Virus record (IMG/VR): IMGVR_UViG_3300042400_001381
Location: 1-30,772 of that record
DNA length: 30,772 nucleotides
Direction: 5' to 3' (one strand)
Source: a virus
This document shows positions 3,687 through 26,298 of the stretch, one piece after another. How positions within the stretch are numbered: position 1 is the stretch's first letter; each line of letters begins with the position of its first letter. The position numbers and the translations under genes were made by a program. The notes beneath the pieces were generated by a model. It was not told the DNA's origin. It ran no database searches and was given only the letters and a program-made list of their open reading frames with translations.

Positions 3687-4313
3687 ATGAGCACTTACGA
3701 CCAATTAAACCGCCAATTAAATGATGAGATGCAGTCGCTTGCTGAGAAAATCAAAAGCGGCGATTACTCCGAGAGAGATAGAAATAGACTAGCGTCAATC
3801 ATGTACCCGAAGTTAAAGTACTTTATTTGGAAGTTCTTTAACGATACTGAACCTACTGAAGAGGTTCTGCACAACACACTGTACAAAATATTCAAGAGCA
3901 TTGAATCATACAGTGATAAATTTAGATTTACTACGTGGATCTATACGATTGCCAAGAACGAGTCCCTGTTGCATCAGCACAAAATGAGAACTCAATTTGC
4001 AGTCAGATTGGATGACGTTGAAAATAAAGTAGATCGACCTGACGACTCAGGCTTTGTCCTAGAAAAGGAAACTTACATTGAATCTCTCTATGTTGAGACT
4101 CTACGTATGATGACCACTCTACCTGACTGTATTGAAAAGTCAATCCTAATTGACAAAGAACTCAATCACATGAAAGGTAATGATCTGGCTGAAAAATACG
4201 ATATGAATCTGAACACTGTCAAGACTAAAATTCGTAAGGCCAGAAAAATGCTTAGAGATCAAGTCCTAGAAAAGAATCCAGAATTCAAGGACAGACTAAA
4301 AGAATTTCTATAA
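3687..4313 (+). CDS. Sigma-70 family factor, ECF-like; candidate late sigma (gp55 role)
   Basis: 208 aa with two sigma domains. Region 2 spans about residues 32-100 and contains EEVLHNTLYKIFKSI followed by FRFTTWIYTIAKNE, the usual ECF signature around the -10 recognition helix. Region 4 spans about 134-190, with a helix-turn-helix NDLAEKYDMNLNTVKTKIRK at 165-184. There is no region 1 or 3. In T4 the late sigma gp55 recognises only a TATAAATA -10 box; several such boxes occur in this window before virion-type genes, so this protein is the natural candidate reader. That link is inference. A host-derived ECF factor used for another gene set is the alternative. Confidence 0.88.
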   Translation: MSTYDQLNRQLNDEMQSLAEKIKSGDYSERDRNRLASIMYPKLKYFIWKFFNDTEPTEEVLHNTLYKIFKSIESYSDKFRFTTWIYTIAKNESLLHQHKMRTQFAVRLDDVENKVDRPDDSGFVLEKETYIESLYVETLRMMTTLPDCIEKSILIDKELNHMKGNDLAEKYDMNLNTVKTKIRKARKMLRDQVLEKNPEFKDRLKEFL

Positions 4314-14171: not shown

Positions 14172-14975
14172 ATGTCAAATGTCCTGTCTTCATATGATGA
14201 AGCCCTAGCTTCTGGAGAATTACGAACTTTTAAGAAGAAAACCAAATATCATGAATATGAATTCGTAGTTCGCTCCGAAGACGAGATCAAATTCAATGTT
14301 TCTCAAAATATCTCGATTAAGCCAACCGGTGGCGAGTATTTTAAACCGCTATTTACTCCGCATTTTGCAGCAGATGGTAACATCCTAACCTTGGACGATC
14401 TTAATCAAGAGGACGTTTGGTTAGATGCCGGTGGTCACATTGGAATCTTTGCAACTAGATTACTGACTCAGTTTCCAAAAGTAAAAAAAGTATATAGTTA
14501 CGAACCTTTTAGAAATAATGTTGATTTTGCTCAGCGTAATATTGAGTTGAATGGAGTAGCTGATCGTTGCGAAATAATCGAAAAAGCACTAGTACATGAC
14601 GATCAGGAATCAGTTGATTTCTTTTTATCACAGGACTCAGGCAAACACTCTGTCCATCCAATCAAAGGTCGAGCAACAACGTCTGTGCCTGCAATCAATA
14701 TTAATGATGCGTTACGTGGAGTAACTGCAATCAAGATGGATATCGAAGGCATGGAGTATGATATGGTCAAAGCAATCACAGATTGGTCCAACATCAGATT
14801 AGCAATAATCGAATATCATTTTCACTATTCATGGTTAACGGGTAAGGATCGCGAAAGCAAATTTGCCGAAATGATGGAAATCTTTCACGCAAATTTTGAT
14901 AAAGTATTTGTAAATAAGAATGCTGCTTCAGGCAAGCATTTTATTACGCACTTTGCCGGCTTTAAAAACATTTAA
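14172..14975 (+). CDS. FkbM-family methyltransferase
   Basis: 267 aa. The SAM-binding motif is LDAGGHIGIFA at residues 84-94, followed by the acidic residue of motif II in VYSYEPFRNN (Glu111) and the FkbM hallmark IKMDIEGMEYDM at 187-198. A later segment, LAIIEYHFHYS, also fits. FkbM enzymes methylate hydroxyl groups, commonly on sugars. It is followed after four bases by a glycosyltransferase-like gene, so the pair probably makes or modifies a glycan. It sits among virion genes but has a TATAAT-type promoter, unlike the flanking late genes. The substrate is unknown. Confidence 0.88.
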   Translation: MSNVLSSYDEALASGELRTFKKKTKYHEYEFVVRSEDEIKFNVSQNISIKPTGGEYFKPLFTPHFAADGNILTLDDLNQEDVWLDAGGHIGIFATRLLTQFPKVKKVYSYEPFRNNVDFAQRNIELNGVADRCEIIEKALVHDDQESVDFFLSQDSGKHSVHPIKGRATTSVPAININDALRGVTAIKMDIEGMEYDMVKAITDWSNIRLAIIEYHFHYSWLTGKDRESKFAEMMEIFHANFDKVFVNKNAASGKHFITHFAGFKNI

Positions 14976-14979
14976 CTCC

Positions 14980-16023
14980 ATGAAGAAGATCCTATATGCA
15001 TACTTTGGTAAACTTGGACTATTTGACGAAGATATTCCAGGCCATTCTTTTTATCAAATTGGGCTATTGGATGCAATTCGTGATATTGAAGGAGATTGTA
15101 AAATAGATTTCTATTCGTATCTACCTACAGCTAATACAACTCTAGTCTTTCCGGACGATGACTTAGGTAGATTAAATATCTCATACTTTAAAGAGCTAGT
15201 CGAAGACTATGATATTCCTTTTCATGAAGTCACGAATCGAATTATTTCAAAAGAGTATGACGTAATCTATTTAAAGGCAAGATTTAGGAATTTATCAACG
15301 TTAGCAAAAGGCCTATTTGATGCACAGGAATTTGAAGATCTTATTCGAATTGCAGCTTCAATTGGAGTACCAGTTTACATATTAGATACTGATCTATCTC
15401 TACCTGCTTCTTTTATGGAATCAACTCGATATCCATTTACAATAAAGGTTCCATCAATCGATATGCCAGGAATCGGTAAGCGTTTTGCTGAAGATTGTTT
15501 ATCAATAAACACCGAAAGAATTCGTAAGAGACCCAAATTACCAACTGTCCTATACTATGGCAATTTGGATTTTAAGAATTACAAAGTCGGCCACTCAAAA
15601 AATCCAATTATCGTTGAGCTATTGAATATGCTGGACGAGTATTCACTATTCGATGGCAGTCAATTTATGGTAACTCATGCCGGCAAGCCAGTATCTGAGG
15701 TTAAAGTCTACAAGCAGATTCCAAGGACTAATCGTCTCAGTATTTGGCATAGTTTTGCTGAAGCTGCTGCGAGTATCAATATTAGTAAAGATCTGTATAT
15801 TGAACGTGGCTTTTTACCGGCAAGAACCTATGAAGCTGCAATGTTTGGCACAGTAACTGTGTCATATTTAGATAAAAATCTGCACCCAGCTATGAGCTTT
15901 ACGAGTGTAGAACAAGCAATTCAGCAACTTGTGTATTTGACTGAAGTATCAGTTGATGACTATCTATCACTATATTCGCATCAGGTTAATCAACTTATCA
16001 ATAAAGGCAGATCTCATGAATAA
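14980..16023 (+). CDS. Glycosyltransferase-like protein (GT-B, CgeB-like C-terminus)
   Basis: The start is set at ATG 14980 (MKKILYAYFGKLG), four bases after the methyltransferase stop; longer in-frame starts would overlap that gene. 347 aa. The N-terminus begins with a Rossmann-like strand. Residues 265-290 read SINISKDLYIERGFLPARTY then EAAMFGT, like the C-terminal donor-binding region of GT-B enzymes of the CgeB / Glyco_trans_1_2 type (N-[IV]-x-K, then R-x-[FY]-E-x-x-x-x-G). It may glycosylate DNA, a virion protein or a host surface glycan. Family membership is moderately supported, substrate not at all. Confidence 0.65.
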   Translation: MKKILYAYFGKLGLFDEDIPGHSFYQIGLLDAIRDIEGDCKIDFYSYLPTANTTLVFPDDDLGRLNISYFKELVEDYDIPFHEVTNRIISKEYDVIYLKARFRNLSTLAKGLFDAQEFEDLIRIAASIGVPVYILDTDLSLPASFMESTRYPFTIKVPSIDMPGIGKRFAEDCLSINTERIRKRPKLPTVLYYGNLDFKNYKVGHSKNPIIVELLNMLDEYSLFDGSQFMVTHAGKPVSEVKVYKQIPRTNRLSIWHSFAEAAASINISKDLYIERGFLPARTYEAAMFGTVTVSYLDKNLHPAMSFTSVEQAIQQLVYLTEVSVDDYLSLYSHQVNQLINKGRSHE

Positions 16024-20820: not shown

Positions 20821-21015
20821 ATGATTATTGTAGACATTTCGAAATTTAAAAACTTGGACCAAGCGCTTAAAGCCTATAAACGAAAGAGCGATAAAATGGG
20901 CACAGTTAGAGAACTTAGAAATCGTCAAGAATTTGTAAAGCCGAGTGTAAAGCGCCGCGAAGAAATCAAAAAGGCAAAGTACATTCAAGCAAATTATCGA
21001 AAGACTGATGATTGA
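20821..21015 (+). CDS. rpsU: Ribosomal protein bS21
   Basis: 64 aa, the usual size of bS21. The family pattern is clear: LDQALKAYKRKSDKMG at residues 12-27, then VRELRNRQEFVKPSVKRREE at 29-48, matching the ALK-x-[FY]KRK-x-x-K-x-G and ELR-x-R-x-x-F-x-KPS-x-x-[RK]RE core. The end KAKYIQ is like that of Bacteroidota bS21, including a tyrosine at residue 54. bS21 sits beside the 16S rRNA 3' end on the 30S platform and affects start-site choice. Phage-encoded bS21 has been described in other large aquatic phages. It overlaps the Nudix gene by eight bases and is transcribed from a probably leaderless promoter. Confidence 0.93.
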   Translation: MIIVDISKFKNLDQALKAYKRKSDKMGTVRELRNRQEFVKPSVKRREEIKKAKYIQANYRKTDD

Positions 21016-21529: not shown

Positions 21530-22036
21530 ATGGACAATACACTAGAGTCACAAGTTCTTGACGAGCAAACTGTACAAAATGAAACTGTTGCTGGCGAAGC
21601 ATCAGAACCGATCGAAGATCCAAAAGCTGAGCTAGATAAACTCATTGAGTTAAGAACTGGCCTCTTTGATGTTAATTTGGATGCAGAAGACCTAAAATGG
21701 CTTAAGAATTCTTGCAATTCTAAGTTCTCATTCAAAGGTCCAAACGATGCATTTATGCTAATTAATGCATACCTTGGACTAGATGCAGCTTTGCAGAATA
21801 TGCCAAAGGGCAAAGAAGCAACTAGCGTTAAATTAACCGCAGCGACGGTTGAGGCACTCGCAGTATTGGTAAATCGTTACGAAGGTTCAGGCATCGGGCC
21901 TGCACAAAAGATCTTTAAAGTTGCAGTATCTCTGCAGCAAGTTATCTCGGTTATGAGAGAGCTTGACCAGCAAATCAATGCAATTGAACAGGCACTGCAT
22001 GCACAAAACGAGCCACAAACTGATCAGGAAGGCTAA
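21530..22036 (+). CDS. Hypothetical protein (168 aa)
   Basis: No recognised family. The N-terminal 35 residues are acidic and likely disordered; the rest is helical (DKLIELRTGLFDVNLD, VEALAVLVNRYEGSGIG, FKVAVSLQQVISVMRELDQQ). It stands alone between the Nudix gene and a strong intrinsic terminator. The acidic tail and helical body would suit a small regulatory or virion protein, without further support. Confidence 0.75.
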   Translation: MDNTLESQVLDEQTVQNETVAGEASEPIEDPKAELDKLIELRTGLFDVNLDAEDLKWLKNSCNSKFSFKGPNDAFMLINAYLGLDAALQNMPKGKEATSVKLTAATVEALAVLVNRYEGSGIGPAQKIFKVAVSLQQVISVMRELDQQINAIEQALHAQNEPQTDQEG

Positions 22037-22116: not shown

Positions 22117-23409
22117 ATGGATAATTTTGAATTAATCGCGCAGTTTATCGATGAAATGAAGGCTACTTCATCGACCAACGACAAGAAAGAAATCATCAAA
22201 AAGTATGATTCTCAATACTTTAGACAAATCCTAAAGTATACATATCATCCTTTCAAAAAATACTATGTAACTTCAGACAATCTGAAAAAGCATCCGGAAC
22301 TAGTATTTGATTGTTACGATACTCTATTCCAATTATTAGATGGTCTGAATGAACGCCGGATCACTGGCAATCATGCAATTGCCGCTGTGAATGGTTTTAT
22401 TGCAAAAAATCAAAATCACGCAGATATCATCTATGATGTGATTGACCGCAACCTAAAAACTAGGGCAACAACGACTTTAATCAATGCTGTCCTGCCCAAT
22501 ACGATTCCAACGTTTGACGTTGCTTTAGCCATGCCATACGACGAAAAGACAAAGAAGAAAGTCGATTTCGAAAAGGATACTTGGTTTATGAGTCGTAAAC
22601 TTGATGGAATTCGTTGTATTTCAATTTTTGACGAGGCTGGCAAAGTCAAATTCTATTCAAGAGCCGGCAATGAATTTTTAACTCTGGGAGTCTTAGCGGC
22701 AGAACTTGAAACGCTAAATTTAGTAAATACTGTCATCGATGGTGAGATCTGTCTAGTTGACGATAATGGCAAAGAGGATTTTCAAGGCATCATTAAACAA
22801 ATCGGTAGAAAGGACCACATTATCCAAAATCCAATGTACTTGGCATTTGATATGCTTTCACTAGAAGATTTTCTAGATGGAACTTCAACTGAAACTTTTG
22901 GAATTCGAAATGGTAGATTGTTGTGGACTTTGACTGGCAAGGGACTAATTAGAGTTTCTCACCTAGATCAATTTAAGGTTGCCAGCGAAGACGATGTTAT
23001 TAAGTCAATGGTAACTGTTAGGCAGGAGGGTTGGGAAGGCCTGATGTTACGAAAGGACTCAACGTATCTCGGCAAGCGCTCAAATGAAATCCTAAAGATC
23101 AAAGAGATGCATGATGCTGAATATACAGTCATTGACCTTGAAACGGCGGTTCAGCGAGTTATCATTGATGGAGCTGAGGTTGAAGAATTAATGCTTAAGA
23201 ATGCAATCGTTGAACATCGAGGCAATCGAGTACAAGTCGGCTCAGGCTTTTCGTTGGAACAGCGTCGATTCTTTAGAGATAATCCAGCTGAGCTGCTCGG
23301 TAAAACGATTACTGTTCAATACTTTGAAGAAACTCAAGATCAGCATGGAAATCACTCACTAAGATTTCCAGTATTTAAAGTTTTACATGGCGACACTAGA
23401 ACTTATTGA
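22117..23409 (+). CDS. ATP-dependent DNA ligase
   Basis: 430 aa, close to T4 gp30 (487 aa). Nucleotidyltransferase motifs are all present: motif I SRKLDGIR with catalytic Lys161, motif III VIDGE (Glu210), motif IV EGLMLR (307-312) and motif V ILKIK (325-329). The C-terminal part (about 345-430) fits an OB-fold domain. It seals nicks during replication and repair. It heads an operon with guanylate kinase, an SSB-like protein and an exonuclease. The first 140 residues are a helical extension that may bind DNA. Confidence 0.95.
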   Translation: MDNFELIAQFIDEMKATSSTNDKKEIIKKYDSQYFRQILKYTYHPFKKYYVTSDNLKKHPELVFDCYDTLFQLLDGLNERRITGNHAIAAVNGFIAKNQNHADIIYDVIDRNLKTRATTTLINAVLPNTIPTFDVALAMPYDEKTKKKVDFEKDTWFMSRKLDGIRCISIFDEAGKVKFYSRAGNEFLTLGVLAAELETLNLVNTVIDGEICLVDDNGKEDFQGIIKQIGRKDHIIQNPMYLAFDMLSLEDFLDGTSTETFGIRNGRLLWTLTGKGLIRVSHLDQFKVASEDDVIKSMVTVRQEGWEGLMLRKDSTYLGKRSNEILKIKEMHDAEYTVIDLETAVQRVIIDGAEVEELMLKNAIVEHRGNRVQVGSGFSLEQRRFFRDNPAELLGKTITVQYFEETQDQHGNHSLRFPVFKVLHGDTRTY

Positions 23410-23430
23410 GTCAAATTGATAAAAGAAGAT

Positions 23431-23910
23431 ATGCATAAACGAATAATATTAGCCGGTCCTGGTGCATCAGGCAAGGACCATATGAGAAAATTACTTGAAA
23501 GTCGAGGCTTTAAATACGCAGTCAGCTATACAACTAGACCACCAAGACCTGGAGAAATAGACGCTAAAGACTATTACTTCATAACTGAAACTGAGTGTCA
23601 ATTAATGAAGGACAATAATGCCTTCTATGAGATAATTGATTTTAATGGTTGGTCTTATGGTACGTCAAATCTCCAATTCCATCGAGATGACGTCTTTATC
23701 ATGACACCGAGCGGAATTGCCCATCTCAAACCAGAAGACAGAGCTAATAGTTTCATTATGTATTTTGATATAGATGAGTCTATTCGCAGAGATCGTCTCT
23801 CAGCTCGTGTTATGCCTGGGCATTCAGTTGAGGCTAGGCTGCAAGCCGACCGAGAGCTATTCGAAGGCTTCACCGACTTTGACATAAAAATAACTGATCC
23901 TAATTTTTAA
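23431..23910 (+). CDS. gmk: Guanylate kinase
   Basis: The start is ATG 23431 (an upstream in-frame TTG is less likely); AGAAG lies just before it. 159 aa, shorter than cellular enzymes of about 205 aa. The P-loop is GPGASGKD (residues 9-16), followed by the family signature SYTTRPPRPGE (32-42), the GMP-binding residues, and DYYFIT and YGT further on. It converts GMP or dGMP to the diphosphate, feeding dGTP synthesis. T4 encodes its own dNMP kinase for the same purpose. The last position of the P-loop is Asp instead of Ser/Thr, which could affect magnesium binding. Confidence 0.9.
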   Translation: MHKRIILAGPGASGKDHMRKLLESRGFKYAVSYTTRPPRPGEIDAKDYYFITETECQLMKDNNAFYEIIDFNGWSYGTSNLQFHRDDVFIMTPSGIAHLKPEDRANSFIMYFDIDESIRRDRLSARVMPGHSVEARLQADRELFEGFTDFDIKITDPNF

Positions 23911-23912
23911 TT

Positions 23913-24338
23913 ATGAATTACGAAATAACTGGCACAATCATTGACGTATTGTCAACTCAAACATTCAATAAAGGCTTTCGAAAAAGAGAATTTGTTATTG
24001 AAACTGACGAAAAATATTCTCAAAAAGTAGTATTGCAGCTTGTTCAAGACAAATGTGATATGATAGACTCTTATGGTATTGGCGATACGGTAACCGTGTC
24101 GTTTAACGTTAAGGGTCGAGATTGGGTTGACAATTCCGGTACTGTAAAATATTTCAATACCCTAGAGGCTTGGCGAATTGTAGCTAAGGGCCGTGCGCAG
24201 TTGTCTGAACCGACTGCCGATATGGGCGGAGGATTTGACGATGACGATGATTTCTTTGGAGATATCGATAATGGCCCAAAGAAACCTAGCAAACCAGCCG
24301 ATACTAGTTTTGACTTAGACGACGACTTTCCATTCTAA
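23913..24338 (+). CDS. DUF3127-like OB-fold protein with SSB-type acidic tail
   Basis: 141 aa. Residues 1-95 match the pattern I know from DUF3127, a family found mostly in Bacteroidota: YEITGTIIDVLSTQTFNKGF, KREFVIET, DSYGIGDTVTVSFNVKGRDW, VKYFNTLEAWRI. The layout suggests an OB fold. Residues 96-133 are a Gly/Asp-rich linker, and the protein ends DLDDDFPF, nearly identical to the acidic C-terminal tip of bacterial SSB (DDDIPF) that recruits replication partners. It lies among ligase, kinase and exonuclease. No classical SSB is seen in this window. A phage SSB role is a strong inference, not proof. Confidence 0.85.
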   Translation: MNYEITGTIIDVLSTQTFNKGFRKREFVIETDEKYSQKVVLQLVQDKCDMIDSYGIGDTVTVSFNVKGRDWVDNSGTVKYFNTLEAWRIVAKGRAQLSEPTADMGGGFDDDDDFFGDIDNGPKKPSKPADTSFDLDDDFPF

Positions 24339-24712
24339 TGACTAAAAAGCCGGACAATATTGCAGATAATCCAGGTCTACTGCCGTATGCTAGCAATGTT
24401 GGGGCGCCTGCAATAAAGCCAGACAATATTGAAGATTGGAAGCTACGCGGAGTCAATAAAGTAAATCGACAGCTTGCAACAAAGTTTGATGAGCTTAGGG
24501 AAGAATACCTTAAGCTGGTTAAGGAATATGAGTGGAATGAATTGGTTTATCAAGCAAAATTCTCATATGAACCAGTAATTGGAGATACCTATCATCTCTA
24601 TGTCGGTAAGGACGGTCGGCCTTTCTTATCACTAATTGCACCAGACGAATGGAATAAGGAGTATATTGGATCCTTTAAATTAAATAGCGAACATAAGTGG
24701 ATTAAAATATGA
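24338..24712 (+). CDS. DUF2452-like protein
   Basis: 124 aa. The pattern NPGLLPYASNVGAPAIKPDN near the start and FSYEPVIGDTYHLY with a following WxxxYIGSFKL are, from memory, those of DUF2452, a small family common in Bacteroidota. Function is unknown. Its start shares one base with the SSB-like gene stop (TAATG) and its end overlaps the exonuclease gene by ATGA, so it is co-translated with DNA metabolism genes. Confidence 0.75.
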   Translation: MTKKPDNIADNPGLLPYASNVGAPAIKPDNIEDWKLRGVNKVNRQLATKFDELREEYLKLVKEYEWNELVYQAKFSYEPVIGDTYHLYVGKDGRPFLSLIAPDEWNKEYIGSFKLNSEHKWIKI

Positions 24713-25323
24713 AATATGTATCAATCGATATCGAAACAACTGGATTAGACCCAGAAACCTGTCAGATTTTACAAGTCGGTGCAGTTATTGAAGACACTCA
24801 AAACTTGTTGCCTCTTGAGGAATTGCCTAAGTTCAACTGCATAGTTGAGCATCCCGCATATACTGGGTCACCATATGCATTGTGGTTAAATTCCAATTTA
24901 CTTAAAATATTGGGTAACATGGAGAGTCTCAAAAAGGACGAGAGACTTGACTATAGAAAGTCTCACAATATCCTACCAGTTGGGACAGTTGCTGCCTCTT
25001 TTAATATGTGGCTCAGTCATAATGGATTTGAGCAATCTGAGACCGGTGGAATTGTGATCAATGTTGCTGGCAAAAACTTTGCATCATTCGATAAACACTT
25101 CCTGGTCAAATTGCCAAATTGGCCAGCACGCATTCAAATGCGACAACGTATCATGGATCCAGCAATCTTGTTTATGAATTGGCAGAAAGACGAGTCATTA
25201 CCTAATCTCAATAAGTGTATTGAGAGAGCTGGCCTTACTGGCGAAGTCTCTCACGATGCAGTAGACGACGCAATTGACGTGGTTCGAGTAATTCGAGCAG
25301 CGACTAATAATTATTCAAAGTAG
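24709..25323 (+). CDS. DnaQ-like 3'-5' exonuclease (DEDDh)
   Basis: 204 aa. All five catalytic residues are present: Asp7 and Glu9 in SIDIETTGL, Asp128 in NFASFDKHFL, His182 and Asp187 in SHDAVDDAID. The His spaced five before the Asp marks the DEDDh type. It probably trims or proofreads DNA 3' ends, or recycles nucleotides; there is no attached polymerase. It overlaps the DUF2452-like gene by ATGA, and its stop codon overlaps the promoter of the UV endonuclease gene. Confidence 0.93.
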   Translation: MKYVSIDIETTGLDPETCQILQVGAVIEDTQNLLPLEELPKFNCIVEHPAYTGSPYALWLNSNLLKILGNMESLKKDERLDYRKSHNILPVGTVAASFNMWLSHNGFEQSETGGIVINVAGKNFASFDKHFLVKLPNWPARIQMRQRIMDPAILFMNWQKDESLPNLNKCIERAGLTGEVSHDAVDDAIDVVRVIRAATNNYSK

Positions 25324-25335: not shown

Positions 25336-26298
25336 ATGAATCCAAAAACTAGATTAGGATATTGCTGCATTAACTTATCGCTAGCTGATCAAAAAGTATC
25401 AGCTAACCGTGGCATGATAAAAAAGACCTTTGAGGCTAAGGGCAAGGATTATGCAGCCGATTTAGCATATCTTAATCTATGCGATTTACTTACTATTATT
25501 AAATGGAATGTTGACAACGAAATCATGGTATATCGTATGTCAAGCGATATTTTTCCATGGATGTCCGAATATGAAATTACTGAGCTGTATAACTTTTCTC
25601 AAATCAGCGCAAAGCTGACTGAGATTGGTAATTTCGTAATAGAGTCTGGTATCCGAGTTTCAATGCATCCAGGCCAATTTGACGTATTGTGTTCACCAAA
25701 TCCAGCAGTTGTCAAAAAGACAATCAAAGATCTAAATCAACACGCTCAAATTATGGATTTAATGGGCTTACCGATCAATCATCGGTTCCCAGTAAATATC
25801 CATCTTGGCGGCACATACGGCGATAAAGAATCAGCCGCTCAGCGTTTTTGTGAAAACTTTACAAAATTAGCGGAGTCTACACAAAAACGATTAGTTGTCG
25901 AAAATGACGATAAAGCTGCCCAATATTCAGTTCGCGATCTGTACCTAATGGTATACAAAAAGATCGGTACACCAATCACATTTGATTATCACCATCATCG
26001 ATTTAACACTGGTGATTTAACTGAAGAGCAGGCATTTAGTCTGGCATATTCAACTTGGGATTGCACTCCTCTTTATCATTATTCAAGTTGCAAAAAGACC
26101 TTTGAAGATTCGTCAGTTATTGCGCGATCTCATGCAGATCACGTTTACGAAAAAATACGAACTTACGATCATAATATTGATATTGAAGTTGAGGCTAAAT
26201 CCAAAGACCTTGCTGTGATACAATATTTAAAAAACTGGCCAACACTGCTTGATTCATATCTGGAATTTACAGATTCGTCTCAGTTAATAAAAAGTTGA
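25336..26298 (+). CDS. uvsE: UV damage endonuclease (UVDE/UvsE family)
   Basis: 320 aa TIM-barrel repair enzyme that nicks 5' of UV photoproducts and some other lesions. Family motifs: RLGYCCINL at the N-terminus, YRMSSDIFPW (66-75), SMHPGQFDVL with His111, NIHLGG (His156), VENDD (Glu189), TFDYHHHRFN (Asp217, His220), and SHADHVYEKI with His266, followed by IDIEVEAKSKD, with Glu and Lys metal/active-site residues. All expected metal ligands appear present. A phage carrying its own UV repair fits a sunlit aquatic habitat. Its promoter seems to make a leaderless mRNA. Confidence 0.95.
   Translation: MNPKTRLGYCCINLSLADQKVSANRGMIKKTFEAKGKDYAADLAYLNLCDLLTIIKWNVDNEIMVYRMSSDIFPWMSEYEITELYNFSQISAKLTEIGNFVIESGIRVSMHPGQFDVLCSPNPAVVKKTIKDLNQHAQIMDLMGLPINHRFPVNIHLGGTYGDKESAAQRFCENFTKLAESTQKRLVVENDDKAAQYSVRDLYLMVYKKIGTPITFDYHHHRFNTGDLTEEQAFSLAYSTWDCTPLYHYSSCKKTFEDSSVIARSHADHVYEKIRTYDHNIDIEVEAKSKDLAVIQYLKNWPTLLDSYLEFTDSSQLIKS

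Follow-up and report, generated by a model that had tools for sequence, protein, structure and literature searches.

Does a phage protein that joins a domain of unknown function to the C terminus of a bacterial single-stranded DNA (ssDNA)-binding protein (SSB) act as an SSB itself, and would it be the only one that its phage has? The question is posed by a DUF3127 gene at 23913..24338 (plus strand) of the window, the whole stretch of DNA analyzed here, which is an entire virus record of 30,772 bp (a 30.8-kb contig). The open reading frame (ORF) starts with ATG at 23913, stops with TAA at 24336-24338, and encodes 141 amino acids (aa). Pfam DUF3127 (PF11325) matches residues 4 to 89 with 98.3 bits against a gathering cutoff of 27, and PHROG 4932, "single strand DNA binding protein," matches residues 3 to 104 with 112 bits (profile positions 1 to 103 of 117). 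An initial annotation had described a DUF3127 core, a Gly/Asp-rich linker, and a terminal DLDDDFPF at this locus, and that description holds, the C terminus reading FDLDDDFPF.

The same annotation presented an SSB function as newly assigned to DUF3127, which it is not. The SSB label already stands in PHROG 4932, a family built by remote homology, and in RefSeq phage records, relatives of the window protein among them, while Pfam keeps "unknown function"; one paper also names a DUF3127-annotated phage SSB (PMC8004638). That paper is the only mention of DUF3127, and PF11325 is mentioned nowhere, in the 5.39 million nonsubscription papers searched. Within that same literature, we found no description of the near-universal host-type tip of DUF3127 proteins or of their occurrence together with gp32 in large phages and together with a canonical SSB in hosts; the PHROG label likewise does not mention a coresident gp32.

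Gene neighborhood and family assignment

The gene sits in a tight, codirectional cluster on the plus strand. Upstream are a NUDIX gene (start at 21008), an ORF (start at 21530), an ATP-dependent DNA ligase (22117..23409), and, directly before DUF3127, a guanylate kinase (23416..23910). Downstream are a 124-aa DUF2452 protein (24338..24712; Pfam), the start of which shares 1 base with the DUF3127 stop codon, a DnaQ-type 3'-5' exonuclease (24709..25323; RNase_T, PHROG 192), and the UV endonuclease UvdE (25336..26298). Ligase, guanylate kinase, and UvdE were assigned by Pfam and PHROG matches and by synteny, and the exonuclease is a conserved neighbor of DUF3127. The order ligase-guanylate kinase-DUF3127-exonuclease-UvdE is kept in about 20 relatives, a synteny that led us to reject an artifact or annotation error. 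The initial annotation had correctly named ligase, kinase, and exonuclease as neighbors, although DUF2452 lies between DUF3127 and the exonuclease; in the synteny comparison, DUF2452 occurs in the DUF3127 neighborhood only in the window and in one relative, L007. Elsewhere in the window, a sigma-70-like protein (3687-4313; region 2, 35.5 bits), possibly a late sigma factor, adjoins PhoH, and an FkbM-type methyltransferase followed by a 367-aa protein occupies 14172-16023.

Searches against named families place the protein outside the canonical SSBs. In Pfam, it is not listed for PF00436 (SSB) at an E value of 0.1, and because it misses the gathering cutoff, identification as a PF00436-type SSB was rejected; nor does it match the gp32 family PF08804 at an E value of 0.1. 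Its only NCBIfam matches are to SSB or RPA families, all below threshold. A PDB search with the single sequence returned only chance matches to unrelated coiled-coil chains (E values of 0.036 and 0.24). PF00436 does match 12 of 86 DUF3127 relatives, weakly, with a best E value of 0.014.

The predicted OB-fold core

The AlphaFold2 model, built from 86 sequences, has a pLDDT of about 93 to 95 over residues 1 to 90, and its core (residues 1 to 95; 23913..24197, plus strand) follows the secondary-structure order E-E-E-E-H-E-E. In a Foldseek comparison with the PDB, the model matched Coxiella SSB with an E value of 8e-7 and a TM score of 0.72 (target length), and among the best 50 matches nearly all were SSBs, with bacterial and mitochondrial proteins among the best, the others being PriB. 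VIA, in which models lacking a clear match usually score a Z of 7 to 8 and which compares folds against the families that it lists, aligned 92 residues with Salinibacter SSB (Z of 12.7, root mean square deviation of 2.4) and gave PriB a Z of 12.5. Among viral structure models, the top named matches were DUF3127 and phage SSB entries. Structure prediction, which the initial annotation had put forward as a check, therefore returned the OB fold and, together with the linker and tip described below, an SSB-like architecture.

Profile comparisons point the same way. Searched against the PDB, the family profile A2 found SSBs in 13 of 14 matches (best E value of 3.7e-4). A trivial explanation for this result could be similarity of the acidic tip. 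With linker and tail removed from the profile, SSBs still accounted for 16 of 18 matches (best E value of 2.9e-4), so the tail does not drive the profile match. An alignment of the full family with 16 host SSBs by hhalign reached 94% probability (E value of 1e-7), and the tail-free alignment reached a modest 55% (E value of 1e-4), against 0.2% for reversed SSBs. The tail-free control thus retains the SSBs but lowers the hhalign probability from 94% to 55%.

Conservation of the core extends to individual residues, Trp71, Tyr35, and Lys24 among them. Trp71 (codon 24123..24125, plus strand) is invariant in alignments A1 and A2 and falls on E. coli SSB Trp88 in the hmmsearch alignment; the invariant Tyr35 falls on Trp54 by hmmsearch and on the Trp40 site by hhalign, its placement being method dependent. 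In E. coli SSB, the residues that stack on ssDNA are W40, W54, F60, and W88 (PMC3991886). The core of the window protein has a net charge of 0, with no net positive charge, and the family median is -1; several host SSB cores are similar. These models and alignments lead us to predict an SSB-type OB fold for the DUF3127 core and to regard the window protein as divergent and SSB-like, with an OB core that probably binds ssDNA; this binding, like the oligomeric state in which it would occur, is inferred.

The linker and the C-terminal tip

The core is followed by a linker rich in Gly, Asp, Lys, and Pro (residues about 96 to 132; 24198..24308, plus strand) that is predicted to be disordered, with a pLDDT of about 49 to 55, and that varies in length and sequence among relatives. 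Linker and tail together carry a net charge of -11. The protein then ends in the SSB-like tip FDLDDDFPF (residues 133 to 141; 24309..24335, plus strand).

A survey of DUF3127 members for this acidic end had also been suggested initially. Relatives were drawn from viral contigs, bacterial genomes, and a 296-genome sample of Bacteroidota, giving 156 nonredundant phage and cellular proteins. About 97% of them end in an acidic stretch followed by P-F or P-W: position -1 holds F in 96% and W in 2%, position -2 holds P in 97%, and an acidic residue occupies position -4 in 90% and position -5 in 85%. Positions -10 to -20 display no comparable conservation, and the distance from Trp87 to the C terminus ranges from 20 to 59 residues. 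A slightly loose rule detects the tip in every cellular member (115 of 115) and in 38 of the 41 phage proteins. The same end was found in 10 of 1,352 other ORFs of at least 150 aa; since 5 of these 10 are DUF3127 or SSB proteins missed by the exclusion, the background is about 5 of 1,347, or roughly 0.4%. Judged by this conservation, the tip is under strong selection and not a product of chance, while the linker varies freely.

Individual members illustrate both the persistence and the loss of the tip. The DUF3127 protein of L007 (3763-4725) carries an insert of ∼180 aa within its linker and retains an intact tip, DFDNDFPF. The insert itself recurs in large multidomain proteins of L287 and L288 and in L289, and it has no Pfam match. 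Two phage members have lost the tip (L062:7998-8327 and L065:578-922); their ends, DPLDE[LI]FG, more closely resemble the tails that gp32 has in the large relatives described below.

Coexistence with other SSBs and the probable role of DUF3127

The 115 phage records with a DUF3127 relative are named mostly as phages of Bacteroidota, so the host of the window phage, presumably a large phage, probably belongs to this phylum. DUF3127 is also widespread in cells: it occurs in 171 of 296 sampled Bacteroidota genomes (58%), nearly always as a single copy; a single one of the 14 control genomes, Bacteroides, also has it. Of 61 flavobacterial DUF3127 loci, 47 to 48 have the same chromosomal neighbors (aat-like, greA-like, HIT-like, and others, names assigned by eye), and we therefore rejected the possibility that all cellular DUF3127 genes are prophage copies. 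A canonical SSB accompanied DUF3127 in all six DUF3127-bearing genomes tested. Those host SSBs examined that are longer and tailed terminate in EDDDLPF, SEDLPF, ENDMPF, and the like, which makes the phage DUF3127 tip one of the host SSB kind; the SSB of Flavobacterium psychrophilum, FpsSSB, is reported to end in DLPF (PMC3991886).

In a tree of 156 DUF3127 proteins (124 columns), in which many forks are without resolution, 15 changes between phage and host labels are required, and at least 10 are forced by well-supported branches, indicating that the gene has been swapped repeatedly between phages and hosts. The window protein falls within an all-phage clade of 11 rows (support of 100/99), and its lineage appears to have held its own copy for long.

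Six large relatives of the same lineage, four with records 270 to 271 kb long and two with records of about 253 kb, are syntenic with the window over the DUF3127 cluster. Their kinship is also seen in TerL, which is 73 to 74% identical to that of the window in the three large relatives tested (72 to 73% in two shorter records). All six encode a gp32 homolog (PF08804 above cutoff; PHROG 224 at 87 to 91 bits in both records scanned), and these gp32 proteins are 80 to 81% identical to each other; a PF00436 SSB was not found in any of the six. In the record of 271,290 bp, roughly 95 kb separate gp32 from DUF3127. Because the window is a 30.8-kb contig, a gp32 gene in its own phage is deduced from these relatives. 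The initial annotation had counted a gp32 or SSB elsewhere in the genome, together with a lack of DNA binding, against its proposal, and the first of these, a gp32, is what all six near-genome-size relatives contain. Fold, linker, and tip support its candidate phage SSB, but this protein is unlikely to be "the" SSB of the window phage.

Compared with known proteins, DUF3127 is closest to bacterial SSBs (PF00436; E. coli SSB and FpsSSB), with which it shares an OB core, a disordered linker, an acidic D-x-P-F tip, and a tryptophan aligned with the DNA-stacking Trp88. It differs from them in its score below the PF00436 cutoff, in its shorter core, and in occurring alongside a canonical SSB in hosts and alongside gp32 in the window lineage. 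T4-type gp32 (PF08804, PHROG 224), the ssDNA-binding protein of phage replication, also has an acidic C-terminal tail; however, DUF3127 has no sequence match to it, and gp32 is a separate gene in the same phage lineage. The gp32 tail in the large relatives, DDLDDLF[KA][DN]L, lacks the host-type P-F tip.

The explanation that we favor, and consider fairly likely, is that, in this phage, DUF3127 binds ssDNA as a divergent SSB-like protein, working alongside gp32 and serving as a dock for host enzymes that interact with SSB. Its OB fold would bind ssDNA, either that of the phage or recombination and repair intermediates, and its disordered acidic linker would carry a terminal peptide of the host-SSB kind. 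Bulk coating of ssDNA would most likely fall to a T4-type gp32, the gene for which would lie elsewhere in the genome and the tail of which would end without a host-type P-F tip. Beside such a gp32, the DUF3127 tip would recruit host SSB-interacting enzymes and give the phage access to them. The neighboring DnaQ-type exonuclease may also be recruited in this way; E. coli ExoI, which has the same DnaQ-type fold, binds the SSB tip, and this makes the phage exonuclease a candidate partner. In known bacteria, the SSB tip is a docking site for enzymes of replication, recombination, and repair. For E. coli SSB, at least 17 proteins are recruited through the tip (PMC10018359).

The closest rival holds that DUF3127 is the main replicative ssDNA-binding protein of the phage. 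Its SSB-type fold and tip fit such a role, and in three complete small DUF3127-bearing phages, phi18:3, Gundel_1, and tooticki6-1, neither PF00436 nor gp32 was detected, so that in those phages, which are siphophages, this role may well hold. For the window phage we regard it as unlikely, since its own lineage encodes gp32, the main replicative SSB of T4. A helper that brings in host repair and replication enzymes is the more likely role there than that of the phage's only SSB. The contrast between tips is not general, though: L284 and L285, phage records from a different lineage that measure 274 and 369 kb, encode both DUF3127 and gp32, and their gp32 (PF08804, 1357-2268) ends in DEVDDLPF, so that an SSB of the T4 type bears the tip of a bacterial one, and the absence of a tip from gp32 cannot serve as an argument everywhere.

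Still less probable is that DUF3127 acts as a decoy or host takeover factor, its free tip occupying host SSB-interacting proteins and keeping them away from phage DNA. The match between DUF3127 and host SSB tips and the repeated exchange between phages and hosts would suit such a factor, but it would need little DNA binding, at odds with an OB core conserved down to Trp71, Tyr35, and Lys24, and it leaves the housekeeping-like chromosomal DUF3127 of many Bacteroidota without explanation. Least probable of all is an OB protein of the PriB kind, active in replication restart or RNA binding, that gained an SSB tip as an anchor, since PriB, although it has an SSB-like OB fold and is among the best fold matches, is not retrieved by the sequence profiles, which find SSB, and lacks the SSB C-terminal tail (PMC8509808).

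Extending the favored explanation, an SSB-like binder working beside gp32, to other genomes is possible but tentative. In large Bacteroidota phages, gp32 would coat DNA, and DUF3127, from a family shared with hosts, would be an adaptor presenting a host-type tip; in the hosts, DUF3127 would be a widespread second, divergent SSB with partners of its own. If DUF3127 is a second SSB-like hub of this kind, replication and repair in the whole phylum Bacteroidota involve a component that has gone unstudied, and the phage protein would show how a gp32-bearing phage still reaches host SSB-docking enzymes.

Tips of this kind also occur on other phage proteins. The primase/helicase of tooticki6-1 (L084:6444-8270) ends in DDNSDVPF, and similar ends are found on a 611-aa ORF (L187) and a 505-aa ORF (L068), placing an SSB-like tip on what may be helicases of small phages.
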